A stretch of DNA of 64,000 bases. It comes from Allobosea sp. BK604. GTDB lineage: Bacteria; Pseudomonadota; Alphaproteobacteria; Rhizobiales; Beijerinckiaceae. The translations under genes were made by a program, and so were the position numbers. A model generated the notes under the pieces. The model was not told the origin of the DNA. It searched no databases and saw nothing but the letters and a program-made list of their open reading frames with translations. Positions 4,433-20,210 of the stretch are shown piece after piece; position 1 is the stretch's first letter; each line of letters starts with the position of its first letter. Location of the stretch: positions 496,001 through 560,000 of the forward strand of contig NZ_SLZF01000004.1 of the NCBI RefSeq assembly GCF_004341515.1, given 5' to 3'.

Positions 4433-5518
4433 CTATTTGGCTGAGCCGATCCCTGAGGTGATACTGGCTGGTTCGCGTTTCCTCGTTCGACTGTTGCTCG
4501 GCTTGCTTTCAGCTTCGTGCCGCGTCGAACGATTTGAGGATTGCGCGGCGGGGTGATCAAATCCAATGAAAGTTTTGGAAGGCTTGATCGAAGGCGTCGA
4601 TGGAGACGCGCCTATCCCATCGCGCAGCTCGGCCGCGAAATCCATGCCGGCAAGGCTTGCCGCGAGTGCGTTCGCCATGGCCGAGCTCGGCTCGCGGTCG
4701 GACAGCACGAGGCCGATCGTCTGGCTCTGTTCGGGCTCGACCAATCGCACGGCCGCCAGATCGGCGGCAGCACCGAACAGATAGAGGAAACTATCCGGCA
4801 CGATGCTGGCCCAGCCGCCCTGGCGCAGATGCGAGCACAGCGCCAGGAACGAGTTGCTGACCACCGTCGGCGCAATCGCGACGCCGACGGAATCGGCGAG
4901 CCGATTGATGATGCGCCGGTTCTGCATGTCCTCGCTGAGCAGGCAGAGCCGCGACCCGGCCGCCTCGCGCCAGGTCAGGCGCTCGCGCGAGGCGAGCGGG
5001 TGGTTCCGCCCGGCAATGAAGATGAAGCGTTCGCGGTAGAGCGGCAGGCGCCGGACATGCTCGATCGGCTCGTTGTCGAGATAGGTCAGGCCGCCATCGA
5101 TCTCGAAAGCGTCGAGTCCTTGCGCGATGGCGCGCGAGGTCAGCGACAGGATCTCGATCTTCGCGTCGGGATGGCAGGCCAGGAAGCGGGCGCTGAGCAG
5201 CGCGATGGCCGGCATCGCCGCCGGGATGACGCCGAGCCGCAACGTGCCGGTCAGGCCGCTGCGCAGCCCCGTGAGGTCTTCGCGCAGGCTGCCGTAATCG
5301 GCGAGGATCTGGCGGCCCCAGACCAACAGCTTCTCGCCCTCTGGAGTGAGCCCGACGAATTTGTGGCTGCGGACGACGAGCTGCGCCTCGAGATCCTCCT
5401 CGAGCTTGCGGATGGCAGCCGACAGTGTCGGCTGCGCGATGTTGCAGGCGTCGGCCGCGCGGGCGAAGTGACGTTCCCGTGCGAGCGTGACGAAATAGGA
5501 GAGCTGGCGAATGAGCAT
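4433..5518 (-). CDS. LysR-type transcriptional regulator
   Basis: 361 residues. The N-terminal winged helix-turn-helix is clear (MLIRQLSYFVTLARERHF, then AADACNIAQPTLSAAIRKLE), followed by a periplasmic-binding-like effector domain to about residue 300. The last 55 residues are a Ser/Arg/Lys-rich tail with no family counterpart, so the gene is longer than the usual 300 residues. The start at 5518 is chosen because the family begins within a few residues of the HTH; an ATG at 5641 would add 41 unrelated residues. It lies upstream of the formate dehydrogenase in the same direction and divergent from the GlcG-like gene at 5838, so either may be a target. The effector is unknown. Confidence 0.9.
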   Translation of the reverse strand: MLIRQLSYFVTLARERHFARAADACNIAQPTLSAAIRKLEEDLEAQLVVRSHKFVGLTPEGEKLLVWGRQILADYGSLREDLTGLRSGLTGTLRLGVIPAAMPAIALLSARFLACHPDAKIEILSLTSRAIAQGLDAFEIDGGLTYLDNEPIEHVRRLPLYRERFIFIAGRNHPLASRERLTWREAAGSRLCLLSEDMQNRRIINRLADSVGVAIAPTVVSNSFLALCSHLRQGGWASIVPDSFLYLFGAAADLAAVRLVEPEQSQTIGLVLSDREPSSAMANALAASLAGMDFAAELRDGIGASPSTPSIKPSKTFIGFDHPAAQSSNRSTRHEAESKPSNSRTRKREPASITSGIGSAK

Positions 5519-5837
5519 CGGAAAGCCCGGGTAATCGTTATTCCCATTGGGATATATCGATTGCCAAAGATAGCCAAGCCTTCGCCTCACATTGAGTGCT
5601 TCCGGCAGCCGCGGAAGCCCATCGGAAACCCGCCATTCCAATTGGAAAAATTTGCCACGAGGCGCCGCTTGCCCGTTTCGCAGAAGTGCATCCGGTCGGC
5701 GGAAATCAAAGTTCCGAGTGAATATAACGACGCGCCTGATCTCATCTAACGCAATCTAACGAGTTTTCGCGGTTGCCGCACTGGTCTGGAAGCGCGGAGG
5801 CGGCGATGGTCCGGACGTCGGAGACACGGGGCGGATC
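5519..5837. promoter_or_regulatory. Divergent intergenic region with two LysR-like palindromes
   Basis: 319 bp without a gene, between the LysR start and the GlcG-like start. Two dyads are visible: TCCCATTGGGA at 5542-5552, 24-34 nt upstream of the LysR ATG, and the perfect 12-bp palindrome TTCCAATTGGAA at 5636-5647. They share the TCC/GGA architecture, as expected for two half-occupied sites of one regulator. The spacing and divergent layout fit classical LysR autoregulation with activation of the opposite gene. No experiment supports this; it is read from symmetry and position. Confidence 0.5.
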
Positions 5838-6251
5838 ATGCAACTCAGCTCGCAGCAGGCGCAGGTCATCATCGACGGCGCACAAGCAAAGGCCGGCGAG
5901 ATCGGCCTGCCCGTCGTCATCGCCGTGCTCGATGCCGGCGCGCATCTCAAGGCTTTCAGCCGGATGGACGGTGCCGTGCTGGCCTCGATCGACATTGCCA
6001 AGCGCAAGGCTGCGACGGCCGTGCTGTTCCAGGCCAATAGCGAGGCGGTCTGGGACTATTGCAAGCCGGGTGCTCCCGCTCCGGGGCTGGAGCTCACCAA
6101 TGGAGGGCTTGCGCCGTTCGGCGGCGGCATCCCGCTGAAGGGGCCGGACGGAGCCGTCATCGGTGCGCTCGGCGTCTCCGGCGGCTCGGTGCAGCAGGAC
6201 GTCGAGGTCGCGCAGGCGGCGCTCGCCGCCTTCGAGCGGCTATCGGGCTGA
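5838..6251 (+). CDS. GlcG/HbpS-like heme-binding family protein (DUF336)
   Basis: 137 residues covering one GlcG/HbpS domain, the fold of GlcG from glycolate clusters and of the heme-degrading HbpS of Streptomyces. The fold is seen in PVVIAVLDAGAHLKAFSRMDGA, cited by its core VVIAVLDAG, then a DIAKRKAATA helix and the Gly-rich FGGGIPLKG segment followed by IGALGVSGGSVQQDVEVA. There is no signal peptide, so it is predicted cytoplasmic. Such proteins sit beside oxidoreductases in many proteobacteria, but a biochemical role is rarely proven. It probably begins an operon with the short-chain dehydrogenase 48 bp downstream. Confidence 0.85.
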   Translation: MQLSSQQAQVIIDGAQAKAGEIGLPVVIAVLDAGAHLKAFSRMDGAVLASIDIAKRKAATAVLFQANSEAVWDYCKPGAPAPGLELTNGGLAPFGGGIPLKGPDGAVIGALGVSGGSVQQDVEVAQAALAAFERLSG

Positions 6252-6299
6252 CCTCGCGCGGCCACGCCAATCCAGATTCAATCAACAGAGGAAAGACCG

Positions 6300-7103
6300 A
6301 TGTCCAAGACCATCCTCATCACCGGCGCGGGCTCCGGCTTCGGCAAGGCCGCTGCGATCGGCATGGCGAAGAATGGCCACAGCATCATCGCCACCGTCCA
6401 GGTCTCCTCACAGGTGACGCCGCTGCGCGAGGAGGCTGCGTCGCTGGGCCTGAAGAATTTTCAGGTCGAGCGGCTCGACCTGACCGATCCCTATGACATC
6501 AAGCAGGCGCAGGGCTGGGATTTCGACGTGCTCTGGAACAATGCCGGCATGGGCGAGGCGGGGCCGGTCTGGGAAATCCCGATCGAGCTCGTGCGCAGGA
6601 ATTACGAGGTCAATGTCTTCCTGCCGCTCGTGCTGACCCAGGGCGTGGTGCAGCGCTGGGTGCGCGAAGGCAAGCAGGGCAAGGTCGTGTTCACCTCGTC
6701 GATGGGCGGCCTGTTCACCCCGGCGAACTGGGGTACCTATGTCTCGACCAAGCACGCGCTCGAGGCCTTTGCCGAGGCGATGCAACACGAGCTCGCCGGC
6801 TACGGCATCAAGGTCCAGACCATCAATCCCGGCGCCTATTACACCGGCTATAACGAGACCATGGCCGATAATCCGTTCCGCTGGCTCGACGACAGCAAGA
6901 ATTTCACCAAGCGCGCCGAGCTGCGCAAAGGCTTCGACGACTTCTTCGCCACGCCAGAGGGCAAGATGGATCCTCAGGAGATGATCGACCGGATGATCGA
7001 GATCGTCCCGGCCGATACGGGCAAGTTCCGCAATGTCTGCCCGAAGGCGATCGAGGACATGCTCAAGGCGCATCAGCTCGCCGCCTGGGAGAACCAGATC
7101 TGA
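6300..7103 (+). CDS. Short-chain dehydrogenase/reductase (SDR)
   Basis: 267 residues. It is a classical SDR with a Rossmann cofactor loop TGAGSGFG at residues 8-15, the NNAG motif (LWNNAGMGE), catalytic Ser in FTSSMGG, and the Tyr-x3-Lys pair in YVSTKHALEAFAEAMQ, cited here as YVSTK. SDRs reduce carbonyls or oxidise alcohols with NAD(P)H. An AGAGG Shine-Dalgarno precedes the ATG. It lies between the GlcG-like gene and a secreted NTF2-like gene, and a second SDR follows at 7826, so the four genes may form one divergent unit under the LysR regulator. The substrate cannot be assigned. Confidence 0.93.
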   Translation: MSKTILITGAGSGFGKAAAIGMAKNGHSIIATVQVSSQVTPLREEAASLGLKNFQVERLDLTDPYDIKQAQGWDFDVLWNNAGMGEAGPVWEIPIELVRRNYEVNVFLPLVLTQGVVQRWVREGKQGKVVFTSSMGGLFTPANWGTYVSTKHALEAFAEAMQHELAGYGIKVQTINPGAYYTGYNETMADNPFRWLDDSKNFTKRAELRKGFDDFFATPEGKMDPQEMIDRMIEIVPADTGKFRNVCPKAIEDMLKAHQLAAWENQI

Positions 7104-7201
7104 GAGCCGGACCGACTGCCCCGTCCGCCCCCTCGCATCTGCCGTCGGCGGCCGGCCCCAAGGCGACGGCCGTCCAAAGGCTTTCCCAAAAGGACCATGA
7201 G

Positions 7202-7702
7202 ATGAACAGCAGACAGTCGACCAACCGACGCCGCGGCGCTGGCCTGCTCGCGGTCGGTCTGGCAGCACTCCTTGGCGCCCCGGCCGCGCTGGCGCAGCCA
7301 GGTGACAACAAGGCGATCGTGCAGCGTGCCTTCGCGGCCTGGGCGGCCGGGACCGGTGGTCCCTATGACCTCCTCACTGATGACGCGAGCTGGACCATCA
7401 CCGGCAACTCGCTGGCCTCGAAGACTTATGGCAGCCGCGAAGCCTTCATGAGCGAGGTGATCAGGCCCTTCAACGCGCGCATGAGCACAGGACTGAAACC
7501 AACCATCCGCAATCTCTATGCCGAGGGCGACACCGTCGTCGTCTTCTTCGACGCCAGCGGTACCGCACGCGACGGCAAGCCCTATGCCAATACCTATGCC
7601 TGGTTCCTCGATATGCGCGGCGGCAAGATCGAGAGGGCTCACGCCTTCTTCGACAGCATCGTGTTCAATGATTTCTGGAGCCGCGTGAAACCGGCTCAGT
7701 AG
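7202..7702 (+). CDS. Secreted NTF2-like (SnoaL-type) protein
   Basis: 166 residues. Residues 1-31 form a signal peptide with a basic start, a hydrophobic core (LLAVGLAALLG) and an ALA-Q cleavage site, so the mature protein is predicted periplasmic. The rest has the cone-shaped NTF2-like pattern: AIVQRAFAAWAAG, LLTDDASWTITGNS, and a C-terminal beta segment GKIERAHAFFD. SnoaL-like members are ketosteroid isomerase-fold enzymes or ligand-binding proteins. An AAAAGGA sequence sits upstream of the ATG at 7202. The function is not known; the context of two SDRs suggests small-molecule redox or isomerisation. The gene ends 8 bp before a 100-bp dispersed repeat. Confidence 0.8.
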   Translation: MNSRQSTNRRRGAGLLAVGLAALLGAPAALAQPGDNKAIVQRAFAAWAAGTGGPYDLLTDDASWTITGNSLASKTYGSREAFMSEVIRPFNARMSTGLKPTIRNLYAEGDTVVVFFDASGTARDGKPYANTYAWFLDMRGGKIERAHAFFDSIVFNDFWSRVKPAQ

Positions 7703-7710
7703 TGCACTTA

Positions 7711-7810
7711 GAGCATATTCGAGCGAAGTGGACGCCGGTTCGCGTGAAGAAAATGCGTCAAAACAAATAGATAGCGGATTTTCGCGATTCGAAGAAACGC
7801 GGAAATGCTC
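7711..7810. repeat. 100-bp dispersed repeat, copy 1
   Basis: A 100-bp element bounded by GAGCAT and ATGCTC inverted ends. Its internal sequence matches copies at 18057-18156 and 44197-44296; copies 2 and 3 are in the opposite orientation. By eye, copies 1 and 3 differ at about ten positions. The core GACGCATTTTCTTCACGCG (seen on the minus strand) is the most conserved part. It lies wholly between two genes and supplies a spurious in-frame ATG at 7805. No transposase is present; it looks like a miniature non-autonomous or REP/RIME-like intergenic element typical of Hyphomicrobiales. Confidence 0.85.
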
Positions 7811-7825
7811 GAGACGGAGGCCACC

Positions 7826-8671
7826 ATGGCAACATGGTTCATCACCGGGGCTTCGCGCGGCTTCGGCGCGCGTATCGCCCGGCTCGCCTTGGCGAAGGGC
7901 GACAATGTCGCCGCCACCGCGCGCAACCCGCATGCGGTGAGCGAGCAACTCGGCGAGCATCCGAATCTGCTGCCGCTGGCGCTCGACGTCACCGACGAGG
8001 CGCAGTGCCGGGCCGCGGCCGCGGCCGCGGTCGAGCGTTTCGGCCGGATCGACGTGCTGCTGAACAATGCCGGCTACGGCCTGCTCGGCGCGGTCGAGGA
8101 AGCCAGCGCTGCCGAGGTCGAGGCGCTCTACCGGACGAATGTCTTCGGACTGCTGGCCGTGACCCGCGCCATCTTGCCCCAGATGCGGGCGCAGCGCTCC
8201 GGCCGCATCCTGAACATCTCATCGATCGGCGGTTATCGTGCGGGCGCAGGCTTCGGCGTCTACAGCTCGACCAAATTCGCCGTCGAGGGGCTGTCGGAAT
8301 CGCTGCATGCCGAACTCGCACCGCTCGGCATCCATGTCACCGTGGTCGAGCCCGGCTATTTCCGCACGGATTTCCTCGATTCCTCCTCGCTCGCGGTGAG
8401 CAAGGCCTCGATCGCCGACTATCACGAAACAGCGGGCAAGGTGCGCAATGTCGCCTCCGGACTCAATCACGAGCAGCCCGGCGATCCGGACAAGCTGGCA
8501 AAGGTCCTGGTCGATTTCGCCGATGCGCCCAATCCGCCGGTCCGCCTGCCGCTCGGGAGCGATACGGTCGCGGCGATCGCCGCCAAGCACGCCTCCGACG
8601 ACAAGATCCTGGCCGAATGGCGGGCCATCTCGGTCTCGACGGATTTCGTCCCGCCGACCGCCGCCGTCTGA
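7826..8671 (+). CDS. Short-chain dehydrogenase/reductase (SDR)
   Basis: 281 residues. Classical SDR: TGASRGFG cofactor loop near the N-terminus, LLNNAGYG, catalytic Ser in ISSIGGYR, and Tyr-x3-Lys in YSSTKFAVEG. The sequence type (SRGFGARIARLALAKG) resembles the oxidoreductases commonly annotated as ketoreductase or short-chain SDR of unknown substrate. The ATG at 7826 is chosen because GACGGAGG stands 6-13 nt upstream; an in-frame ATG at 7805 lies inside the 100-bp repeat and would add seven residues encoded by the repeat end. The repeat separates it from the NTF2-like gene, so it may be expressed independently of the upstream operon. Confidence 0.93.
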   Translation: MATWFITGASRGFGARIARLALAKGDNVAATARNPHAVSEQLGEHPNLLPLALDVTDEAQCRAAAAAAVERFGRIDVLLNNAGYGLLGAVEEASAAEVEALYRTNVFGLLAVTRAILPQMRAQRSGRILNISSIGGYRAGAGFGVYSSTKFAVEGLSESLHAELAPLGIHVTVVEPGYFRTDFLDSSSLAVSKASIADYHETAGKVRNVASGLNHEQPGDPDKLAKVLVDFADAPNPPVRLPLGSDTVAAIAAKHASDDKILAEWRAISVSTDFVPPTAAV

Positions 8672-8767
8672 TCGGACCGCGCCGCTCTCCAAACGTCGTC
8701 TGCTCGATTGTCAGCGCTATGCTCGCTCGAATATAACGGAAGCGAGAGCGCAGGATCGGTCGAGTCC

Positions 8768-9292
8768 ATGGTCCGAGAGAACGAGATCCGCAAGGCCGAG
8801 ATGGCTGTCGAGCCGCCGCCGGCCAGCGATGCCGGCCTGGTCTTCATCGGCCGGATCCGCACGCCCTGGACCTCGCGGCTGACCTGTCCGCGCCAGGGCA
8901 GGGCGGACGGGCCGATCTGCCGGATCGAGCTGTTCGAGCCCTGGGTGGCCGCGCTCGACGGCATCGAGCGCTTCGAGCGGCTTGAGGTGCTGTACTGGCT
9001 GCATCTGTCGCGGCGCGATCTCGTGCGCCAGAGCCCGGCCGATGATGGCCAGACCTATGGCACCTTCTCGCTGCGCTCGCCGGTCAGGCCCAATCCGATC
9101 GGCACGTCGATCGCCCATCTCGTCGGGCGTGAAGGCCCGGTGCTGCTGGTGCGCGGCCTCGATTGCCTCGACGACACGCCGCTGCTCGACCTGAAACCCG
9201 ACCGCAGCCTGTTCACGCCGATCGCGCCGCCGCAACCGGGCGACTTCGAGATCGGCGATAGTCAAAGCGCCGCAATGGCGGAGCGGACATGA
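8768..9292 (+). CDS. TrmO/TsaA-like SAM-dependent methyltransferase family protein
   Basis: 174 residues of the TsaA-like (UPF0066) family, whose characterised member TrmO methylates t6A37 of threonyl tRNA using S-adenosylmethionine. Family motifs are visible: FIGRIRTPW near the start, [22 protein letters not shown] (core GIERFERL), WLHLSRRD, and [12 protein letters not shown]. coli TrmO is about 235 residues; this protein lacks the C-terminal extension and may have another substrate. The ATG at 8768 is one of several possible starts (8708, 8801); no strong Shine-Dalgarno decides. It is the first gene of an apparent five-gene operon with a Fec-type importer and a ModA-like protein, 34 bp before the next gene. 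Confidence 0.8.
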
Positions 9293-9326
9293 TCGCGGGC
9301 CCTTTGGCCGAGCAGGAGCAGAAAAG

Positions 9327-10379
9327 ATGAGATTTCGCACGCTGATCGCTTCCCTGACCCTGGCCGCGCTGTCGCTGCTGGCCGTGCCGGCCTGGGCCGA
9401 CCGACTGGTGACCGACCAGCTCGGTCGCCAGGTCAAGATTCCCGACAAGGTCGCCCGCGCCGTCGTGCTGCAGCACCAGGCGCTCAACCTGATCGTCCAG
9501 CTCGATGCGGTCGACGAGGTCGTCGGCATCCTCGACGACTGGAAGCGCCAGCTCGGCGCCAATTATGTCCGGCTCGCACCCCAGCTCGAGAAGCTCCCGA
9601 CGCCGGGCGGGCTGACCAAGGTGAATATCGAGGCACTGCTGAAGCTGAAGCCGGATGTCGTCTTCGTCACCCACTACGCGCCGCCCGACATGATCAAGCA
9701 GATGGAGAACGCCGGCCTTGCGGTGATCGGCATCGCGATGATGACGGCGCCGCCGACCGAGGCCGCCAAGCTCAACCCCGTCGTTGCCGACGAGGAGGCC
9801 GCCTATGCGACCGGCTATCCCGAGGCGATCCGGCTGATCGGCGACATCCTCAACCGCAAGCAGCAGGCCGAGGAGCTGATCACCTATTCGCTGGAGAAGC
9901 GGAAGGTGGTTCAGGACCGGCTCGCCGACCTGACGGAAGCGCAGCGCGTGCCGGTCTACATGGCCAATCCCGATCTCACGACCTATGGCACCGGCAAGTA
10001 TACCGGGTTGCTGATGCGCCGCGCCGGCGCGGCCAATGTCGCAAGCACCATCGTCGGCTACAAGCAGGTCTCGATGGAGGACGTGCTGAAGTGGAATCCG
10101 GCGGTGATCTTCGTGCAGGAGCGCTATCCATCCGTCGTCGACGAGATCAAGCGCGCTCCCGCCTGGCAGCCGATCGACGCGGTCAAGAACGGCCGGGTCT
10201 ACCTGATGCCTGAATATGCCAAGGCCTGGGGGCATCCGATGCCGGAGGCTCTCGCCCTCGGCGAGCTTTGGATGGCCAAGACTCTCTATCCCGCGCGCTT
10301 CGCCGATATCGACCTGCAGAAGGAGGTCGACGCTTACTACCGGCGCTTCTACCGCACGGGCTACGATTCCTTCCACTGA
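9327..10379 (+). CDS. Periplasmic binding protein of a FecB/BtuF-type ABC importer
   Basis: 350 residues with a Sec signal peptide (hydrophobic core LTLAALSLLAVP, AWA-D cleavage). The mature part shows the TroA/FecB two-lobe pattern: VTDQLGRQVKIPDKVARAVVL, IEALLKLKPDVVFVTH, the linking helix, and KWNPAVIFVQ, then AVKNGRVYLMPEYAK. Such proteins bind iron-siderophores, cobalamin, heme or, in the MolBCA/WtpA-like minority, oxyanions such as molybdate. It is followed 13 bp later by its permease. The ligand cannot be read from sequence; the ModA-like gene in the same operon makes molybdate or tungstate a reasonable hypothesis. Confidence 0.88.
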   Translation: MRFRTLIASLTLAALSLLAVPAWADRLVTDQLGRQVKIPDKVARAVVLQHQALNLIVQLDAVDEVVGILDDWKRQLGANYVRLAPQLEKLPTPGGLTKVNIEALLKLKPDVVFVTHYAPPDMIKQMENAGLAVIGIAMMTAPPTEAAKLNPVVADEEAAYATGYPEAIRLIGDILNRKQQAEELITYSLEKRKVVQDRLADLTEAQRVPVYMANPDLTTYGTGKYTGLLMRRAGAANVASTIVGYKQVSMEDVLKWNPAVIFVQERYPSVVDEIKRAPAWQPIDAVKNGRVYLMPEYAKAWGHPMPEALALGELWMAKTLYPARFADIDLQKEVDAYYRRFYRTGYDSFH

Positions 10380-10392
10380 GCCGGCCTCGCGC

Positions 10393-11430
10393 GTGTCACG
10401 CTCCGCTGCGGCCGGGAGCCTCAGGCCCGGCCTCGTCATCGCCATTCTCGCGCTGCTGCTGCTTTTGGCAGCGCTCGTCTCGCTCGGCCTCGGGCGCTAC
10501 GAGATCCCGCCGTTGCGCGTCGTGCAGATCCTGTTCTCCGGCATCCTCCCCGCCGACGCCGGCCTGTCGGAGATCGAGCGTAATGTCGTTCTCAATGTCC
10601 GCTTGCCGCGTATCCTGACGGCGATCTTCGCGGGTGCGGGCCTGGCGCTTTGCGGTGCGGCGCTTCAGGGCGTCTTCCGCAATCCGCTGGTCGGCCCGCA
10701 CATTATCGGCGTCTCCTCGGGCGCAGCCTTCGGCGGCACGCTGGCGATCCTGCTCAGCGCCTCGCAGAGCCTGTTGCTCTTACTGGCCTTCGCCTTCGGC
10801 GTGCTTTCGCTGCTGATGGTCTACGCGCTGCACGCGCTGGTCGGGCGGCGCAACATGCTGGCGCTCGTGCTCGCCGGCGTCATCATAGGCGGCTTCTTTG
10901 GTGCGCTGGTCAGCCTGGCGCAGTATCTCGCCGATACCGAGGAGAAGCTGCCGCGCATCGTCTTCTGGCTGCTCGGCAGCTTCGCCACCGCCGATTACGA
11001 GAAGCTCCGGCTGATGCTCGGGCCGCTGCTGATCGGAGGCGTGCTGCTGATCCTGCTGCGCTGGCGCATCAACATCCTCTCGCTCGGCGATGATGACGCG
11101 CAGGCGCTCGGCATCTCGGTTGCCGGCACGCGCTGGCTGATCCTGGTGCTGATCGGGCTCGTCGTCTCGGCCCAGGTCGCGGTCAGCGGCGTCATCGGCT
11201 GGGTCGGGCTCGTGGTGCCGCATATCGCCCGCATGCTGGTGGGCCCCGATCATCGTCCGCTGCTGCCGGCTTCGCTCATAGCCGGCGCGCTCTACATGGT
11301 TCTGATCGACGATCTCGCCCGGACGATGACCGACAGCGAGATCCCGCTCGGCATCCTCACCGCCTTGCTCGGCGCGCCGATCTTCGTGCTGATCTTCTTC
11401 CGCAGCCAGCGGGGAGGACGCGATGGCTGA
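10393..11430 (+). CDS. FecCD-family ABC transporter permease
   Basis: 345 residues, of which about eight to ten hydrophobic stretches span the inner membrane. Family marks include LPRILTAIFAGAGLALCGAALQGVFRNPLVGPHIIG (key part NPLVGPHIIG), GLGRYEIPPLRV near the N-terminus, and GVIGWVGLVVPHIAR, the cytoplasmic coupling region. The GTG start at 10393 is inferred: the longer in-frame reading from 10216 overlaps the whole end of the binding protein and has no membrane character. It begins 13 bp after the binding-protein stop and its end overlaps the ATPase gene by 8 bp, so the three are co-translated. Confidence 0.92.
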   Translation: MSRSAAAGSLRPGLVIAILALLLLLAALVSLGLGRYEIPPLRVVQILFSGILPADAGLSEIERNVVLNVRLPRILTAIFAGAGLALCGAALQGVFRNPLVGPHIIGVSSGAAFGGTLAILLSASQSLLLLLAFAFGVLSLLMVYALHALVGRRNMLALVLAGVIIGGFFGALVSLAQYLADTEEKLPRIVFWLLGSFATADYEKLRLMLGPLLIGGVLLILLRWRINILSLGDDDAQALGISVAGTRWLILVLIGLVVSAQVAVSGVIGWVGLVVPHIARMLVGPDHRPLLPASLIAGALYMVLIDDLARTMTDSEIPLGILTALLGAPIFVLIFFRSQRGGRDG

Positions 11431-12226
11431 GGCGATGATCACGATCAACCGGGCCGGCCACAGCTATGACGGCAGGCGCTGGCAATATCGCGCGCTCGAC
11501 CTCACGGTGACGCGCGGCGAGGTCGTCGCGGTGCTCGGCCCCAATGGCCGCGGCAAGTCGACCTTGCTGCGCTCGATCGTCGGCCTGAACCGGCCGAGTG
11601 CGGGGTCGATCGCAACGAGCGGCCCCGTCGGTTTCGTGCCGCAGGATTTCAGCGCGCCCTTCTCCTACAGCGTGCTCGATATCGTGCTGATGGGCCGGGC
11701 GCGCCATATCCATGCGCTCGGCGTACCGGGAAAGCGCGATATCGCGATCGCGCGCAAGGCCTTGGCGACGTTGGGGATCGAGGATTTCGCCGAGCGTGGC
11801 TTCGACACGCTGTCGGGCGGCGAGCGGCAGCTTGCCCTGATCGCCCGGGCGCTCGCGAGCGAATGTCCGATCCTGCTGCTGGACGAGCCCGCCTCCGCGC
11901 TTGACCTGAAGAATCAGGACCTGGTCCTTGGCTTCATCCGGCAAATCGCGGGCATTGGGGGGTTGACGGTGGTTTTCACCACGCATCAGCCCAACCATGC
12001 GCTCGCTGTGGCCGACCGCGCACTGCTGATGGGCGAGGGCGACAGCTACCGGATCGGCACGCTCGCGGAGGTAATGACCGAGGCCAACCTGGCGGCGCTC
12101 TATCATCTGCCGGTCAGGATGATCTCCTATGCCGAGGATGATGTGGAATTGATCACCTTCGCGCCGACATTCCGCTCGCAATTCGAGCGGGCGCGCGCGG
12201 AGCGCCATGATGGGCAAGAGCCATGA
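11423..12226 (+). CDS. FecE-type ABC transporter ATP-binding protein
   Basis: 267 residues. Walker A is GPNGRGKST (note Arg in place of the usual Ala/Ser), the signature motif is LSGGERQLALIARAL, and Walker B is ILLLDEPASALD, followed by the switch His in FTTHQPNHAL. This is the ATPase of the FecB/FecCD importer; it energises transport at the inner membrane. It overlaps the permease by 8 bp and the ModA-like gene by 4 bp (ATGA), strong evidence for a single operon. The Arg in Walker A is unusual but the lysine-serine core is intact. Confidence 0.93.
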   Translation: MAEAMITINRAGHSYDGRRWQYRALDLTVTRGEVVAVLGPNGRGKSTLLRSIVGLNRPSAGSIATSGPVGFVPQDFSAPFSYSVLDIVLMGRARHIHALGVPGKRDIAIARKALATLGIEDFAERGFDTLSGGERQLALIARALASECPILLLDEPASALDLKNQDLVLGFIRQIAGIGGLTVVFTTHQPNHALAVADRALLMGEGDSYRIGTLAEVMTEANLAALYHLPVRMISYAEDDVELITFAPTFRSQFERARAERHDGQEP

Positions 12227-12999
12227 CGATTTCTGCCGTTGATGGCGCTGCCGCAGCAGGAGCCGTTCCCGTCGTGCTCTATGCCGCAGGAAGCCTGCGC
12301 CCGGCCTTCGAGCAACTGCTTCCTGCCTTTACGCAAAAGACCGGCCACGAGATTCGGACCACGTTCGGGCCGGCCGGCTTGCTGCGGGAGCGGATCGAGC
12401 GCGGCGAGCGCGCCGATATCTTCGCCTCCGCCAATATGGCGCATCCCGAGCGCCTCTTCGCACAGGGGCTGTTCGAGCAACCGGCCTGTTTCGCCCGCAA
12501 TCGCATCTGCGTGCTGGCGCGGCGCGAGCTCGGCCTGACCTCCGCGAATCTCCTCGAGATATTGCTCGATCCACAGATCAAGCTGGGCACCTCGACGCCA
12601 GAGGCCGACCCCTCCGGCGATTATGCGCTGGCGGTGTTTGCGCGTGCCGAAGCCGTTCGGCCCGGCGCCGAGGCGATCCTGACGGCGAAGGCACGCCACC
12701 TCGTCGGCGGCCGCCAGCCACTCGCTCTTCCGGAAGGCCGTGCGGCCGGAGAATGGCTCATCGCGACCGGTCAGGCCGACATCTTCCTGAGTTATTGGAC
12801 GAGTGCGCAACAATCGGCCGGCAATGCCGCAGTCGAGATCATCAAGCTTCCGGCCGAGCTGAGCATCGTGGCGGAGTATGGGCTATCGATGGCGGCGCAG
12901 GCGGTTCCGGCGACCTCTGTATTGGCGCGCCATATCATGTCCGATGAAGGACAGCGCATTCTTCAAGACCGGGGCTTCGACGCGGCCCGAACCCCTTAG
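12223..12999 (+). CDS. ModA-like oxyanion-binding protein without signal peptide
   Basis: 258 residues of the ModA/WtpA periplasmic-binding fold, which binds molybdate or tungstate. Ligand-site blocks are visible: YAAGSLRPAFEQLLPAF (core AAGSL), ADIFASANMAHPERL, TSTPEADPSGDYA, and ADIFLSYWTSA, which hold the Ser, Ala and Tyr contacts of ModA-type sites. There is no N-terminal signal peptide: the sequence starts MTISAVDGAAAAGAV and enters the fold by residue 17. The start cannot be extended because it overlaps the ATPase by ATGA. It is therefore predicted cytosolic, and may be a molybdate sensor, carrier or store rather than a transport component; this is inference. Confidence 0.82.
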   Translation: MTISAVDGAAAAGAVPVVLYAAGSLRPAFEQLLPAFTQKTGHEIRTTFGPAGLLRERIERGERADIFASANMAHPERLFAQGLFEQPACFARNRICVLARRELGLTSANLLEILLDPQIKLGTSTPEADPSGDYALAVFARAEAVRPGAEAILTAKARHLVGGRQPLALPEGRAAGEWLIATGQADIFLSYWTSAQQSAGNAAVEIIKLPAELSIVAEYGLSMAAQAVPATSVLARHIMSDEGQRILQDRGFDAARTP

Positions 13000-13443: not shown

Positions 13444-14418
13444 ATGCCAATCGCCATGACCGACGCTCCGAGGCTCGACGGTACCCGATGCCTCATCATG
13501 GGAGGCGGCGGCTTTCTCGGTGTCCACCTGGCCAATGCCTTGATTCGTCAGGGCGCCGTGGTGCGCGCCTTCGGGCGCAGCCTGACCGATCCCACCGAGC
13601 TCGATAGGCGGGTCCGCTGGAGCTGCGGACATTTCGAGGATGTCGAGGCGGTCGCCGAAGCGGCGCGCGGCCAGGAGATCGTGTTCCACCTTCTGAGCGG
13701 CTCCGTGCCGGGACAACCCGGCCAGAAACCGGCTTCCGATCTCGAGACGAACGTTGTCGGCACCTTGCGCTTGCTTGACATCTGCAACGCGGCCGCCGTC
13801 AGGCGCGTCGTCTTCGCCTCGTCGGGCGGCACCGTCTATGGCCCGGCTGAGCGGTTTCCGACCCCTGAAGCTGCGGCTACCGATCCGATCTCGGCCTATG
13901 GCGTCGGCAAGCTCGCGATCGAAAAGTACCTTGCCCTCTATCAGCATCTCTACGGGCTCGAATATCTCGCCCTGCGCATCGCCAACGTCTATGGGCCGCT
14001 GCAATCGACATTGAAGCGCCAGGGCGTCGTCGCGGCGATGCTCGACCATGCGCTCGCCGGCAAGCCGCTGGAGATCTGGGGCACGGGCGAAGTGGTGCGC
14101 GATTTCGTGCATGTCGACGATGTCGTCTCGGCCCTCCTGCTGGCGGCGACCTATGACGGCCCGCACCGCGTCATGAATGTCGGATCGGGGACCGGGCTCA
14201 GCATCAATCAGGTCGCGAGCGATATCGAGGCCGTCGCCGGCACGACCAGCCTGTCGCGGATCTATCGCGCCGGACGTGCCGCGGATGTGCCGGTCAATAT
14301 CCTCGATATCTCGCTGATCACCCGGGAGACGCCATGGCGGCCGAGGCGTCCCTGGCTCGATGGCCTGCGCAGCACCGCCCGCTGGATGGCGGCCCAGCGC
14401 CAGGGCCGGCTCGTTTGA
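13444..14418 (+). CDS. NAD-dependent epimerase/dehydratase (extended SDR, sugar nucleotide)
   Basis: 324 residues. The N-terminus has the extended-SDR Rossmann loop MGGGGFLG, then VFHLLSGS, the catalytic Ser region in FASSGGTVYG, and Tyr-x3-Lys in YGVGKLAIEKYL. The C-terminal half carries the family motifs LRIANVYGP and RDFVHVDDVV, typical of UDP-glucose 4-epimerase and dTDP-glucose 4,6-dehydratase-like enzymes. It should convert a nucleotide sugar for the two downstream genes. The start at 13444 is the first ATG; 13456 is a possible alternative. The exact sugar is not determinable. The gene stands downstream of an AT-rich island. Confidence 0.9.
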   Translation: MPIAMTDAPRLDGTRCLIMGGGGFLGVHLANALIRQGAVVRAFGRSLTDPTELDRRVRWSCGHFEDVEAVAEAARGQEIVFHLLSGSVPGQPGQKPASDLETNVVGTLRLLDICNAAAVRRVVFASSGGTVYGPAERFPTPEAAATDPISAYGVGKLAIEKYLALYQHLYGLEYLALRIANVYGPLQSTLKRQGVVAAMLDHALAGKPLEIWGTGEVVRDFVHVDDVVSALLLAATYDGPHRVMNVGSGTGLSINQVASDIEAVAGTTSLSRIYRAGRAADVPVNILDISLITRETPWRPRRPWLDGLRSTARWMAAQRQGRLV

Positions 14419-14455
14419 CGCGGCACGGAATCTCGAAGGTCGCGGGGAGCAGGAC

Positions 14456-16504
14456 GTGAACAGCAAGACAGAAGGGGATGTGCGGGCCGCCATCCTCATC
14501 CCCGCCTATGGCCAGCCGGGGCTGACCGCGGAGGCGCTTCATACGGCCATCGCCCAGCAGGCGGATTTCGCCTTCGCGGTCGTCGTCGTCAATGACGGCT
14601 GCCCTTCGCCCGAAACGCACGAGATCTGCCTCAACTTCGCAGCGACGTATCCGGGCAAGGTCTTCTATCTGAAAAAGGCGAATGGCGGCCTCAGCGCCGC
14701 CCGGAATTCCGGCCTGGAGTTCGCTCTTTCGGCGTTTCCGGCGCTGGAAGCGGTCTATTTCCTCGATTGCGACAACCATATCGGGCCGTTGCTGCTGCAG
14801 CGCATGGTCGATGCATTGCGCGCCTCCGACGAGACCGTCGGATGGGCCTATGCAGATGTCGACAAGTTCGGCTTCGCGAGCTTCGGCGACACGTCCGGGC
14901 GCTATTCCCCCCTGGAACACCTGTTCCGCAGCTTCTGCGAGGCCGGCAGCATGGTCTCGCGGCGCATGCTCGATGCCGGCGCCCGGTTCGACACGGCGAT
15001 GCGCAAGGGCGTCGAGGATTGGGATTTCTGGCTGCAAGGGCTCGGCAAGGGCTTTCGCGGCGTGCACGTCGCGGATGCCGGGTTTCGCTACCGGCGACGC
15101 GGCGAGAGCATGCTGGTCGAGGCCGAACGCGATATCGCTCCGATCCTCGCCTATATCCGTGGCAAGCACGCGCAGCTCTACAATGTGAAATCGGTGCTGC
15201 GCCTGGAGATCGAGGCGCGGGCGCGCTACGCCATCCATCATCCCGATACCGGCTTCGTCCGCTGCATGACCGCTACCGGGATGAGCGAGCTCATCACGCT
15301 CGACGATTATCTCGTCCGGCTGATGCGAGCCGCCGAGCGACCGGACTATGGGCACTGCCCCGGCCATCTGATCGTGATGGATCAAGCGCTCTTCGACACT
15401 CTGGCGGGCTGGCGCCTGCTCTCCGGCGTGCTCTGGAAGCTCGAATGCGCAGTGATGCAGGCTGCGATCGCCGCATGCTCGATCACGCTTCACCCTTCGC
15501 CTGACCGTACGGTGAGATGGCGCGCCGTCTCGTCCAGCCGGCTCACGGCACAGCAGATCCCATCGCCGCCGGAGACCGCGCAGGTCGTGGCAATCGAGGC
15601 AGGGGCTTTGCTGGCACAGCAATTTCCGGACGGCGCCTTCGCCACCGGCAATCATTGGCATGCGGTCAAGCCGTTCGGCGGTCGATTCTTCGATCTGGAG
15701 ATCGGCCGCGCGCATCCAGGTGAAACGCCGCCTGCAGTCGGAGAGGGTTTCGCATCGCTTCAACGCAGGCTGGAAGCGGTGGCGGTATCTCACGGTCGCG
15801 CGCTGTGGCGTGCCGCCGAGCATGACCGCTATCGGGCGCGTGCCGCCGTTCCGCGCGACCTCTATCCCGAGCTGTTCAACACGCCATCCGTCTTTCCGCC
15901 TGCCGCATCGCAGCGGAGCGTAGCGCTGGTCGTCGACGACGCCACGCCCGCCGCCATCGCTCTCGCGGCGCAGCTCGCCGAGGCACTGCGAGAGGAGGGG
16001 TATGGTCCGCACCTCGTCAGTTTCGGCGCGCTGCTCCCATACGGAGCGGCGCCTCCAGCAGACTTCGACGAGATCGTGGCGCTGCCGCTCGATTCACTGT
16101 GCGGAACCGAGGCCTCGAAGCGCCAGAGCTATCTCGGGACGAGCCTGCCGCTTCTGGACTGGCGCGACAGGCAAGCGGCGCTGGCGACGCTTGCCGCCTA
16201 TTCCCGCGTCGTCTCGGTTGGGAGTCACGTGCTGCACCTGATCGCCGGCGCTCTCCGGCAGTTGAAGGTCGAGACCTGGGCCGTTCTCGTTCGGCCAGAC
16301 GAGCAATCCGCCGTGGATTCGGTCACTGCATGCTCCGCCTTCGAACAGGCCTATGACGCGATCGTTCCGGATACGGAGGAGTTGCTGCATCTCTGCCGGG
16401 CGCTCGGCATTCCGGCAAGGAAGCTGCGCCTGTGGCCCGATGCCGCTCGGGCACTCGTCGCTGCGTCACCCAGCCGGGACGAGGCGGCACCAAGAATCCA
16501 ATGA
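14456..16504 (+). CDS. Family 2 glycosyltransferase fused to a C-terminal GT-B-like half domain
   Basis: 682 residues from a GTG at 14456, preceded by a GGGGAGCAGGA ribosome site; an ATG at 14360 overlaps the previous gene. Residues 12-250 are a GT2 domain: ILIPAYGQPGLT, VVVVNDGCPSP, the FLDCDN metal/nucleotide motif (DxD type), NGGLSAARNSGLEFA, and the VEDWDFWL acceptor-base motif. The middle is low in family signal. Residues about 480-670 resemble the N-terminal half of a GT-B (GT4-like) fold, ending YDAIVPDTEELLHLCRALG, but no C-terminal nucleotide-binding domain follows. It is predicted to build a cell-surface or secreted glycan with the flanking genes; the second domain may be degenerate. 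Confidence 0.78.
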   Translation: MNSKTEGDVRAAILIPAYGQPGLTAEALHTAIAQQADFAFAVVVVNDGCPSPETHEICLNFAATYPGKVFYLKKANGGLSAARNSGLEFALSAFPALEAVYFLDCDNHIGPLLLQRMVDALRASDETVGWAYADVDKFGFASFGDTSGRYSPLEHLFRSFCEAGSMVSRRMLDAGARFDTAMRKGVEDWDFWLQGLGKGFRGVHVADAGFRYRRRGESMLVEAERDIAPILAYIRGKHAQLYNVKSVLRLEIEARARYAIHHPDTGFVRCMTATGMSELITLDDYLVRLMRAAERPDYGHCPGHLIVMDQALFDTLAGWRLLSGVLWKLECAVMQAAIAACSITLHPSPDRTVRWRAVSSSRLTAQQIPSPPETAQVVAIEAGALLAQQFPDGAFATGNHWHAVKPFGGRFFDLEIGRAHPGETPPAVGEGFASLQRRLEAVAVSHGRALWRAAEHDRYRARAAVPRDLYPELFNTPSVFPPAASQRSVALVVDDATPAAIALAAQLAEALREEGYGPHLVSFGALLPYGAAPPADFDEIVALPLDSLCGTEASKRQSYLGTSLPLLDWRDRQAALATLAAYSRVVSVGSHVLHLIAGALRQLKVETWAVLVRPDEQSAVDSVTACSAFEQAYDAIVPDTEELLHLCRALGIPARKLRLWPDAARALVAASPSRDEAAPRIQ

Positions 16505-16538
16505 GAGCAAGAATCCAACGGGAGAAGGTCTCCATCTG

Positions 16539-18053
16539 ATGCTGCACGCTTCCCCCGATCTGCTGCCCTCGCTCTATGATGGCAGCCCGAAAGTCCTGGT
16601 CGCGACGCCTCGAGATCGACCGAGGGGCTTCGTCCCGCCGGCCGATGCCATGCGTTGGCTCGTCGCGGAGACCCTGGATGGCACCGAGTTCGTGCTGTCG
16701 CCCGCGGACGGCGGCAGCGTCGGGCTCGATCGCCGCAGGATCGACCTGCCTCCCACCAATGTCTGGGCCGTCTGGAGCCCGGAGCCGACAATTCCCGTGG
16801 CCGGCCTGGCGGATTGGTGGTCGCGCTCCGGAGGAAAGGGCGCCGAACCGATCTTCGTCAACGGCGACGCCGCAATGCTGCGCAGCGCGCTGATCGAGCG
16901 CTCGCTGGCCGAAGTCGCTCGCCTGACACGGCTGAACCAGTCGCTGATCGAGGATCTCGCAGCCCTGCGTGAAAGCTGGGCGCACGCCATCCGCATCCCG
17001 CCCGAACTCGAGGAGCTGCTGGCCAACCTTCGCGCTGCCCCGCCACGCCTCGTCTTCGAGACGCCGGCAGCCAATGGCGGAGCGGCTGTTCCGAGGGTCG
17101 AGGATGGCGGTCCGTCAGCGTATCTTCGTCAGCGCCTGCCCATGGGTGCGCGCGGCTTTCTCGGCATCGATCTGCACCTCGCCGCGCCGGGCCTTGGCGA
17201 TGGCTTCCTCGAAGCGACGCTGGTCGTTCTGGAGACGGAAGCGGAATTGGCACGGTGGCGCATGCCTTATCGCGAACTGGAGGCTGGCTGGGTGCCCCTG
17301 CGATTGCCATCCGCATCGGCCCTGACCTGGCGTGGGCTCGAGCTGCGCATCCAGGCCGCCGGCGGGACGACAGCGCCGCGCCTCTCCTGTGCCCCGGTCG
17401 GTCTGCTCCGAGACTATGCCTGCGTGGCGTCGGCGGGGGAGGTTCCGCGCGAGGCGATGCTGGAATTCAGGCTCTGGGGCGGCATCCCCGATCTGAAGAC
17501 GCAAACAGGGGGCGCTGCTCTGCCGGCCAATCCGGCGATCGCGATCCCCGACCAGGTGATCGCAACCATGCGGTCGACCCGGGATCTGACCTGGGCCTAC
17601 CCATATTTCGGCTATCTCGACCGGGGCAGGGTGCTGCTGCGCCCGTTGAAGGCGTCGCCGGCATCGGCAGCCTGCGTCAGCCTGCCGGCCAAGCCGGGCC
17701 TCGCAGCACTGTCCTGCGAAGCCATGATCGACGATGGGCTCTGCAAGACGCGGCTGCTGGTCCGCCTCGTCGCAACCCGCCCGGGCCATGCTGTGGAGGA
17801 TGCGGAGCACGGCATCGGTGTTCTCGCCGCGAGCGAATGGATCGAGCTCGCTGAGCCGCTCAAGCCCTTTGGCCTGACGGCCCGCCTGCCAGAGTCGGAA
17901 TCGGGACCTGTCGACCTGCATGTCTTCTCGCGCTTGCCGGAGGGCGGAAAGCTGGACCACGGCCGGGTCATCTTCAGCCGCTTCGCAGCCGAGCTCGACG
18001 AACGGGCAGCCTCGAGGCGCCCCCCGATCATGCCCGTGGCGAAGCCGGATTGA
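16539..18053 (+). CDS. Unrecognised protein of glycan cluster (504 residues)
   Basis: 504 residues. The ATG at 16539 follows GGGAGAAGG; the in-frame 16353 start lies within the glycosyltransferase gene. There is no signal peptide or membrane segment. I do not recognise it securely; it may belong to the DUF6212-type family found beside glycosyltransferases, but this is from memory and unverified. The N-terminal 150 residues have an alpha/beta feel (PKVLVATPRDRP, WAVWSPEPTIP), then a helix-rich segment about 115-155, then a beta-rich C-terminal half with repeated short hydrophobic strands. It is 35 bp after the glycosyltransferase, so co-transcribed. A role as a glycan-binding or assembly partner is possible but unsupported. 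Confidence 0.7.
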   Translation: MLHASPDLLPSLYDGSPKVLVATPRDRPRGFVPPADAMRWLVAETLDGTEFVLSPADGGSVGLDRRRIDLPPTNVWAVWSPEPTIPVAGLADWWSRSGGKGAEPIFVNGDAAMLRSALIERSLAEVARLTRLNQSLIEDLAALRESWAHAIRIPPELEELLANLRAAPPRLVFETPAANGGAAVPRVEDGGPSAYLRQRLPMGARGFLGIDLHLAAPGLGDGFLEATLVVLETEAELARWRMPYRELEAGWVPLRLPSASALTWRGLELRIQAAGGTTAPRLSCAPVGLLRDYACVASAGEVPREAMLEFRLWGGIPDLKTQTGGAALPANPAIAIPDQVIATMRSTRDLTWAYPYFGYLDRGRVLLRPLKASPASAACVSLPAKPGLAALSCEAMIDDGLCKTRLLVRLVATRPGHAVEDAEHGIGVLAASEWIELAEPLKPFGLTARLPESESGPVDLHVFSRLPEGGKLDHGRVIFSRFAAELDERAASRRPPIMPVAKPD

Positions 18054-18330: not shown

Positions 18331-19716
18331 ATGATGGCATTGCGGGCCATTTGCATTGTTGCCGTCATTGGCTTCGCCGGCTTCCTGGCTTTCGCCTGGC
18401 GCTCCGAAATCCCGCCCGAGCAGCCGAATGCACGCCCCGCCTTTGACCCCGCTCTCGTCGCCAAGGGCGCGCAACTGGCCGCGGTCGGCAATTGCATCGC
18501 CTGTCATACGGTGCCGGGCAAGGCGGCCTTCGCCGGCGGGCTCGCCTTGCCGACGCCCTTCGGTACGATCTACTCGACCAACATCACACCCGATGCGGAA
18601 ACGGGCCTGGGCCTGTGGAGCGAAGCCGCCTTCCAGCGCGCGATGCGCCAGGGCGTCGATCGCGAGGGGCGGCATCTCTATCCGGCCTTCCCCTATGACC
18701 ACTACACGCGGGTCACGACGGAAGACAGCCGCGCGCTCTACGCCTTCATCATGAGCCGCGATCCGGTCAAGGCGACGGCGCCGGCCAACGAGCTGCCGTT
18801 TCCGTTCAATGTCAGGCTGATCCTGGCCGGCTGGAAGCTCCTGTTCCTGCGCGAGGGCGAATTGCCACGCGACGCGTCCAAGAGCGAGGCCTGGAACCGC
18901 GGCGCCTATCTCACCGAAGGTCTCGGCCATTGCGGCGCCTGCCACACGCCGCGCAACAGCCTCGGCGCCATGGATGCGAAGCGGCCCTTCGCCGGCGGTG
19001 AAGCAGAGGGCTGGCAGGCCTATGCGATCAACGCGGAATCGCCTGCTCCAGTGCCATGGAGCAAGGACAGCCTGGCCCAGTATCTGCGCCATGGCTGGCA
19101 TCCGAACCATGGCGTCGCCCGCGGCCCGATGGCGGAGGTGACCGGCAATCTCGGGCTGCTGCCCGATGCCGATATCGATGCGATCGCGACCTATGTCGCC
19201 GACATCATGGGCACGCCGTCGCCGCAGCGACAGCAGGAGGCGCAGAAGCGGATCGAGGACGCGTCCCGCCGGCAGCCTCATGTCGCTTCGGCAGCGCTGA
19301 CGCAGGGCGCGGCGGGGGCCGGCACGGCGCGATCGGGGGCAGCGATCTATGCCTCCGCCTGCGCCACCTGCCATGATAGCGGACGGCCACAGCCGTTCGG
19401 CGGATTGTCGTTCCGGCTCAGCAGCGCTGTGAATGCGCCCAATCCCCAGAATATCGTCAATGTCACGCTGTTCGGGCTGCCCCCGGCCGATGGCGAGGCG
19501 GCGCCGGTGATGCCCAGCTTCGCCGGGGTGCTGAGCGACCGGGACATGGTTGCGCTGCTCAACCATTTGCGGGCGCAGTTCACGGACAAGCCGGCCTGGA
19601 CCGGTCTTGAGGACCTGGTGCGCCGGACGCGGACGGGCGAGCACAAGGTGGCCGTCCGCCCGGCCGATGGAATCGAGCGAGCTCCGGCGAATGTCGGTGC
19701 GGAGGAGAGGCGATGA
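18331..19716 (+). CDS. Triheme cytochrome c (electron acceptor of the molybdenum hydroxylase)
   Basis: 461 residues. Three c-type heme motifs are present: CIACH, CGACH and CATCH, near residues 56, 200 and 344. Residues 1-22 are a hydrophobic segment that may be a membrane anchor or signal. This is the layout of the cytochrome subunits of membrane-linked alcohol dehydrogenases and of the cytochromes paired with isoquinoline oxidoreductase-type hydroxylases, which pass electrons to quinone or cytochrome oxidase. The ATG follows GGAGGA by 10 nt. It overlaps the next gene (2Fe-2S subunit) by 4 bp, so the cytochrome is encoded first in a three-gene operon. Confidence 0.9.
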   Translation: MMALRAICIVAVIGFAGFLAFAWRSEIPPEQPNARPAFDPALVAKGAQLAAVGNCIACHTVPGKAAFAGGLALPTPFGTIYSTNITPDAETGLGLWSEAAFQRAMRQGVDREGRHLYPAFPYDHYTRVTTEDSRALYAFIMSRDPVKATAPANELPFPFNVRLILAGWKLLFLREGELPRDASKSEAWNRGAYLTEGLGHCGACHTPRNSLGAMDAKRPFAGGEAEGWQAYAINAESPAPVPWSKDSLAQYLRHGWHPNHGVARGPMAEVTGNLGLLPDADIDAIATYVADIMGTPSPQRQQEAQKRIEDASRRQPHVASAALTQGAAGAGTARSGAAIYASACATCHDSGRPQPFGGLSFRLSSAVNAPNPQNIVNVTLFGLPPADGEAAPVMPSFAGVLSDRDMVALLNHLRAQFTDKPAWTGLEDLVRRTRTGEHKVAVRPADGIERAPANVGAEERR

Positions 19717-20210
19717 CGATCGAGCTCACCATCAACGGCAAGAGTCACAAGGTCGAAGCGGATGCCGCGACGCCCTTGCTCTATGTGCTGCGCAACGACC
19801 TCGCCCTGAACGGCGCCAAGTTCGGCTGCGGCCTCGGCCAGTGCGGCGCCTGCACCGTGCTTGTCGACGGCAAGGCGACGCTGTCCTGCATCACACCCAT
19901 TTCGCTTGCGGAAGGGCGGCAGGTCACGACAGTCGAGGGGCTTGGCACGGCGGAGGCGCCCGGGCCGGTCCAGGCCGCCTTCATCGAATTGCAAGCGGCC
20001 CAATGCGGCTACTGCATCCCCGGCATGATGATGAGCGCGCAGGGACTGCTGCAAAGCAATCCCGCGCCGACCGAGACCGAGATCCGCAATGCGCTGCAGA
20101 CCAATCTCTGCCGCTGCGGCACGCATATGCGCATCCTGGCGGCGATCCGCCGGGCGAGCGAGCTGATGCAGGCTTCGCTCGGCCCGGTCGCGAACAAGAG
20201 GGCAGGCTGA
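19713..20210 (+). CDS. (2Fe-2S)-binding subunit of a xanthine dehydrogenase-family oxidoreductase
   Basis: 165 residues, the usual length for IorA/CoxS-type small subunits. The plant-ferredoxin-like N-terminal cluster motif is GCGLGQCGACTVLVDG with the last Cys at LSC; the C-terminal cluster motif is CGYCIPGM with the partner pair at LCRCG. It shuttles electrons from the molybdenum centre to the heme protein. It overlaps the cytochrome gene by 4 bp and the large subunit by one base (TGATG), so translation is coupled. No maturation (XdhC/CoxF-like) gene is present nearby. Confidence 0.95.
   Translation: MTIELTINGKSHKVEADAATPLLYVLRNDLALNGAKFGCGLGQCGACTVLVDGKATLSCITPISLAEGRQVTTVEGLGTAEAPGPVQAAFIELQAAQCGYCIPGMMMSAQGLLQSNPAPTETEIRNALQTNLCRCGTHMRILAAIRRASELMQASLGPVANKRAG

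Follow-up and report, generated by a model that had tools for sequence, protein, structure and literature searches.

A putative cytoplasmic ModA-like protein encoded with a MolBCA-type importer in Allobosea sp. BK604

Results

The window analysed here, a 64,000-nucleotide stretch (positions 496,001 to 560,000 of contig NZ_SLZF01000004.1) of the 7.6 Mb genome of Allobosea sp. BK604, carries five consecutive genes on the forward strand, encoding a short TrmO-like protein, the three components of a Fec-type ATP-binding cassette (ABC) importer and a ModA-like protein in which no signal peptide is recognized. The last of these belongs to a clade, linked to the importer's binding protein MolA, in which the missing signal peptide and a changed ligand position recur together. 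Comparison loci are designated by L numbers.

The first gene (8768..9292, +) encodes a TrmO-like protein of the RPA0152 type, 174 amino acids long (PF01980, E 3.5e-26; TIGR00104, 95.4 bits against a cut-off of 93.25; structure 3okx, E 2.4e-65), for which an alternative TTG start at 8708 is possible. It is followed by molA (9327..10379, +), coding for the periplasmic binding protein of a molybdate/tungstate importer, as assigned from its match to HI1472 (3psa, residues 25-346, E 5.9e-127), PF01497 and its N-terminus. The FecCD-type permease MolB (10393..11430, +; 345 amino acids; PF01032, E 4.7e-87) was taken to start at the GTG at 10393; a longer ATG frame in the list of open reading frames would overlap molA. 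The ATP-binding subunit MolC (11423..12226, +; 267 amino acids; PF00005, E 3.2e-25) and the ModA-like protein (12223..12999, +; 258 amino acids; PF13531, E 3.4e-44, supported by PRK03537 models, its frame and an AlphaFold model) complete the run. The frames confirm the compact layout reported in the first-pass annotation, with overlaps of 8 bp between molB and molC and 4 bp between molC and the ModA-like gene, and gaps of 34 bp and 13 bp on either side of molA. Judged from this spacing, the five genes likely form one operon. A scan for promoters and terminators gave no signal exceeding that of shuffled sequences, and Rfam models at gathering scores had no match in the whole window, hence no molybdenum cofactor (Moco) riboswitch.

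The importer is of the known MolBCA kind, as had been suggested, because its MolA is clearly related to H. influenzae MolA (HI1472; 3psa/3psh), the runner-up among solved relatives reaching only E 2.9e-28. MolA carries a signal peptide, probably cleaved after AWA as judged by eye, and a FecCD permease and an ABC ATPase are encoded alongside; in MolC only ATPase-type domains were found, with no additional regulatory domain. We therefore regard it as a putative molybdate/tungstate importer. In H. influenzae, MolBC-A takes up molybdate with low affinity and is employed at high molybdate; its regulation is described as poorly understood, and an 'unknown factor' has been postulated that links mol transcription to the molybdate of the cytoplasm (PMC4031551). 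A gene named modA (HI1469) adjoins molABC (HI1470-HI1472) in that organism (PMC3928620), so that a ModA-like gene as neighbour of molABC is already known.

The ModA-like protein was proposed at the outset to be signal-less and not extendable upstream, and both points are borne out. A stop four codons upstream of the ATG closes the frame, and from any start the highest 10-residue mean hydropathy is 1.31, below the value of 1.6 that was used as threshold for signal-like segments in a custom script (not SignalP). Relatives were scored in the same way. The first count took in the loci of the genus Bosea (L023-L037), named bacterial contigs (the best 80 of 431 relatives), seven plasmid stretches (L134, L136, L138-L142) and a phylum sample searched with MolA, in which 12 of 398 genomes, the own genome counted, carried molA. 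All 31 MolA-linked copies were without a possible signal peptide. At the site of the oxyanion ligand, which is Ser or Thr in solved relatives, 30 of these copies have Ala and one Val. The second sample, 394 genomes of an enterobacterial order, was searched with MolA and used instead of a broader gammaproteobacterial sample, where the centre genome was the only one of 369 with molA. It yielded 30 genomes with molA, 11 of them already seen, and the ModA-like gene lies next to molA in 15 of the 19 new loci.

Over all loci combined there are 46 MolA-linked copies, 45 of them distinct (L205 duplicates L091), although several from Rhizobium and enterobacteria are close kin and the number of independent cases is smaller. 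None is signal-like, the maximum being 1.5, and the ligand position is Ala in 44 distinct copies and Val in one; the copies span alpha-, beta- and gammaproteobacteria. One linked Bosea copy with a broken frame (L036) was excluded. That the same signal is missing in all MolA-linked relatives examined speaks for more than chance. As a control, 88 copies unlinked to MolA (86 distinct) were run through the same scripts: 79 are signal-like and 86 have Ser. The two unlinked copies with Ala, L044 with MolC only alongside and L068 with no mol gene detected, are both signal-less and are placed within the MolA-linked group of the tree. The other seven signal-less unlinked copies (six distinct, L025 and L076 being the same sequence) are second tandem copies in Boseaceae in which Ser is kept. 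In these tandems (L025, L026, L028, L032, L033, L076, L089) the first copy has a signal and the second has none, which points, as far as the sequences tell, to another loss of the signal beyond the MolA-linked group.

In a tree of the copies from the first count, a single branch with 100/98 support parts the signal-less Ala/Val sequences from the rest. Since ModA is an exported protein, we read this split as the signal having been lost once; the direction does not come from the tree. A mis-called start was considered and rejected, as the frames are closed upstream and copies in other orientations are likewise signal-less: the ModA-like gene of Klebsiella (L139) is convergent and that of Paracoccus (L141) divergent, so the overlap with molC is not the cause of the missing signal. 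Among the matches listed in open-access literature, which does not take in the key 2011 paper, none describes a cytoplasmic ModA-like protein, and the signal-less clade with its changed ligand site is apparently unreported.

The pairing of molA with the ModA-like gene is frequent. In the two samples that were found with MolA, the two genes adjoin in 25 of 30 genomes. MolB and MolC were not detected between or next to them in nine of these 25 pairs and on a Pantoea plasmid (permease-less loci L140, L146, L150, L151, L152, L154, L206, L218, L221 and L222, some of them from enterobacteria). When five permease-less genomes were searched in full, the best FecCD match was at most 43% identical; six other genomes subjected to the same search each had one match of 54-63%. 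In the six permease-less loci checked by eye (L140, L146, L150-L152, L154) the N-terminus of MolA is signal-like. MolA may use another Fec-type permease in such genomes.

This persistence of the pair where MolB and MolC are not found alongside would fit two proteins sharing a compartment, and ModA itself is periplasmic. The ModA-like protein could then act outside the cytoplasm together with MolA, exported by a route for which it needs no N-terminal signal itself. The twin-arginine translocation (Tat) pathway could conceivably carry a folded partner where the MolA N-terminus holds a twin-arginine pair, as six of 51 do (L024, L050, L055, L103, L107, L149). This pair is missing in the other 45, the window's included, so Tat cannot be the general explanation; none of the other known export routes fits, and the signal-less state extends through 45 distinct copies. 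We consider export by this means improbable.

An AlphaFold model of the window's ModA-like protein, built with seven sequences, has a mean predicted local distance difference test (pLDDT) score of 89.7; the first strand begins at residue 17, and residues 1-9 are of low confidence. Solved molybdate/tungstate-binding proteins occupy ranks 1-17 among its structural matches (Z 23.9-25.9 over 219-233 residues), and solved ModA/WtpA proteins give Z 19-26. The model thus predicts that the intact two-lobed oxyanion-binding fold is retained. By profile, the protein lies just inside the ModA family (TIGR01256, 63.9 bits against a cut-off of 62.5) and just under the cut-off of the best PRK03537 model (281.9 against 288). 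It departs from ModA in having neither a signal peptide nor Ser/Thr at the second oxyanion-binding position. That position is Ala51, at the start of the helix following the second strand of the model; four of five aligned solved proteins have Ser there and one has Thr. Matched by position, it corresponds to Thr60 of P. aeruginosa ModA and S66 of A. baumannii ModA, both outside the five aligned. The hydroxyl of Thr60 binds the oxyanion in the former (PMC9171197). In the latter, S66 makes its contact through a main-chain NH (PMC11734730), which means that losing Ser/Thr need not abolish binding.

Ala or Val at this site in all 45 distinct copies, in parallel with the missing signal, is also what would be expected of a cytoplasmic protein that has acquired a new ligand or binds none, for instance one that scaffolds or regulates MolC or cofactor synthesis. 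Set against this are the retained fold of the window's protein, the conservation of Tyr191 and of the AGSL and Asp-Pro stretches among the aligned members, and the observation that main-chain NH groups supply four of the five named bonds in A. baumannii ModA (PMC11734730). We regard a new or absent ligand as unlikely. The suggestion that the protein is an intracellular sensor or carrier survives in part: it is a fair reading of its predicted location, since the absence of a signal is a property of the whole clade, but high-affinity, ModA-like molybdate binding cannot be assumed when the ligand Ser/Thr is replaced by Ala or Val clade-wide.

Selection on the gene was estimated from the ratio of nonsynonymous to synonymous substitution rates (dN/dS), which is about 0.1-0.2 in six pairs of signal-less genes, 0.19 being the value for a pair from loci without MolBC, some frames taking in a few codons upstream of the start. 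Between the window (12223-12996) and Bosea caraganae (L038, 8980-9753), dN and dS of the ModA-like gene are both far above those of molA and molC, as though this member of the operon had its own evolutionary past. The faster change of the ModA-like protein than of MolA between these two species, and the broken frame of the Bosea copy L036, might raise the suspicion of a gene in decay or of a mis-called frame. The frame is nevertheless open in 45 distinct copies, dN/dS is low even in the pair from loci without MolBC, and the model is that of a confident, complete fold, which leaves decay or mis-calling very improbable.

The TrmO-like gene is a rarer companion. A survey of the gene order, as proposed in the first-pass annotation, does not bear out conservation of the five-gene set: MolABC with the ModA-like gene is widely kept, and TrmO rarely so. 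A conserved five-gene order was accordingly rejected, since a TrmO-like gene near molA was seen only in the window, in Phyllobacterium onerii (L047, at about 0.4 kb) and, at a distance of about 5 kb, in a second Bosea (L133). It lies 17 kb from MolA, beyond another Fec-type importer, in Rhizobium sp. B21/90 (L134), and was not found next to MolA in B. caraganae, whose MolA is 93% identical to that of the window (95% over the matched part). It occurs in six of the best 80 of 431 loci. The five-gene unit is thus a local combination, and the conserved core is MolA with the ModA-like protein, usually accompanied by MolBC.

The TrmO-like protein groups with RPA0152, and its residues Q43, R103, D132 and K143 match the four S-adenosylmethionine (AdoMet) residues listed in PMC4132733. 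It ends at 174 amino acids with no DPR and so has no C-terminal DPRxxY domain. That domain is needed for tRNA methylation by E. coli TrmO; no archaeal homologue is described as having it, and another RNA or protein target was suggested for the archaeal proteins (PMC4132733). With the domain absent, the target is probably not tRNA-Thr.

The place of such a gene in a metal operon had struck the first-pass annotation as unusual. In the own genome there are only two PF01980 genes, that of the window and one inside a TupBCA / ModA-like / FecBCD run. In six Bosea relatives (L119, L120, L122-L125), a TrmO-like gene 80-84% identical to the window's adjoins mop and modABC. A class sample was searched for TrmO, with PF01980 found in 30 of 289 genomes, and all 30 non-own places over the cut-off were examined. 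Proteins at least 54% identical to the window's (the near clade) are encoded within 6 kb of a molybdenum/tungsten (Mo/W) marker in four of eight cases and four of five genera, compared with one of 22 distant TrmO genes (Fisher p 0.011) and none of 20 arbitrary stretches of the same and related genomes; the sample is small, and the identity cut and marker list were fixed after a first look at the data. The four unlinked near-clade members of the class sample are L166, L170, L175 and L178, the last three from one genus; others are L118, L130, L135 and the Ti plasmid L143. One distant TrmO gene outside the class sample (L127) adjoins XdhC. A UPF0066 domain has been found fused to FmdE, a family some of whose members are encoded together with molybdenum formylmethanofuran dehydrogenase (PMC2954224), and besides this fusion no link of TrmO to molybdenum was found among the literature matches listed. 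The clade does recur next to Mo/W genes, and the link is real in some lineages. As side observations, a small Mop-like molbindin gene adjoins the near-clade gene at L119, L120, L122-L126, L158 and L164, and the copy on the Ti plasmid (L143, 5004-5495) lies in the virulence region, with no molybdenum gene in the stretch examined.

Further oxyanion loci were noted. On contig C3 of the own genome (L023, about 4464-10897 of the locus), TupB-TupC-TupA are found with a ModA-like gene with signal, the second TrmO-like gene and a second Fec-type importer. Near the ModA-like family, TupB occurs in 33, TupA in 39 and FecB2 in 20 of the best 80 of 431 loci. At G000:C11:214045-216957 a match of the canonical ModA type is clustered with a long frame that bears TOBE and with a small TOBE gene of the Mop type, probably representing a third oxyanion importer of this genome. 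Downstream of the five-gene run, window 13444-18053 encodes an NAD-dependent epimerase, a glycosyltransferase and a DUF6212 protein; these probably form a group of their own, related to sugars. A molybdenum hydroxylase follows (18331-22438), a possible user of the imported metal. Its placement some 5 kb away in the first-pass annotation is correct: the cytochrome c gene, with three CxxCH motifs, begins at 18331, 5.3 kb from the run, the gene for the [2Fe-2S] subunit at 19713, 6.7 kb from it, and the Mo-binding subunit is encoded at 20207-22438.

Discussion

We propose that the last gene of the run encodes a cytoplasmic descendant of ModA that acts as a receiver or sensor of oxyanion serving MolBCA, a reading of the sequences to which we give about even chances. 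On the inner side of the membrane, the ModA-like protein would bind, less tightly than ModA does, the incoming oxyanion or a chemical form close to it. As a receiver, buffer or sensor it would connect the molybdate of the cytoplasm with the importer or with synthesis of the cofactor. The TrmO-like protein would be an accessory AdoMet-dependent methyltransferase from a clade often next to Mo/W genes.

Several observations weigh against this proposal. The changed ligand position could imply a different ligand or none. No ModA-like gene was detected in the stretch examined at five of the 30 genomes with molA (L153, L212, L216, L217, L223), so the gene is not essential to the system, and with no MolBC detected alongside nine of 25 pairs, the role of the protein cannot depend on MolBC in all species. 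The outgroup ModA attaches to the signal-less part of the tree through a very long branch; this position is unsafe, and read literally it would imply that the signal-less state came first. Moreover, HI1469 is not in the comparison, the closest named relative included being that of Pasteurella (L138).

A wider version, which we advance only tentatively and hold to be rather unlikely, is that MolBCA importers commonly include a two-protein relay: an outside catcher and a cytoplasmic, ModA-derived receiver, retuned by loss of the ligand hydroxyl to release or sense the oxyanion, and possibly the 'unknown factor' of H. influenzae. In ABC importers the binding protein is generally seen as a part that works outside the cell. 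A clade-wide, selected move of such a protein into the cytoplasm, next to an unchanged exported partner MolA and with a shared alteration of the binding site, would provide a testable candidate for sensing or handling molybdate right after uptake, which for MolBC-A is described as poorly understood. For these signal-less proteins, an automatic label like 'molybdate ABC transporter substrate-binding protein' may mislead as to the compartment.

The closest known system is MolBC-A of H. influenzae (HI1470-HI1472), with which the window shares a MolA related over about 322 residues, a FecCD permease, an ATPase and an adjacent 'modA'; unlike it, the window has a TrmO-like gene in front. In the published excerpts consulted, PMC3928620 and PMC4031551 among them, HI1469 is called only modA or molybdenum substrate-binding protein, with no mention of its cellular location. 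With ModA and the PRK03537 group the ModA-like protein has fold and family in common, while differing in its missing signal peptide, in Ala at the Ser/Thr site and in its linkage to a Fec-type importer rather than to ModBC. The TupBCA / ModA-like / FecBCD cluster of the own genome (L023) likewise brings together, within a single run, a Fec-type importer, a TrmO-like gene and a member of the ModA-like family; there, in contrast, the ModA-like copy has a signal peptide and Ser, and the tungstate-type importer TupBCA is present. The window's TrmO-like protein has the beta-barrel AdoMet methyltransferase domain of TrmO and RPA0152 (3okx), but not the DPRxxY domain of TrmO. Finally, molybdate in the cytoplasm is handled by the Mop and ModE molbindins. 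Mop is also named in PMC4031551. These molbindins are of a different family from the ModA-like protein, in which all Pfam matches are of the substrate-binding protein type.

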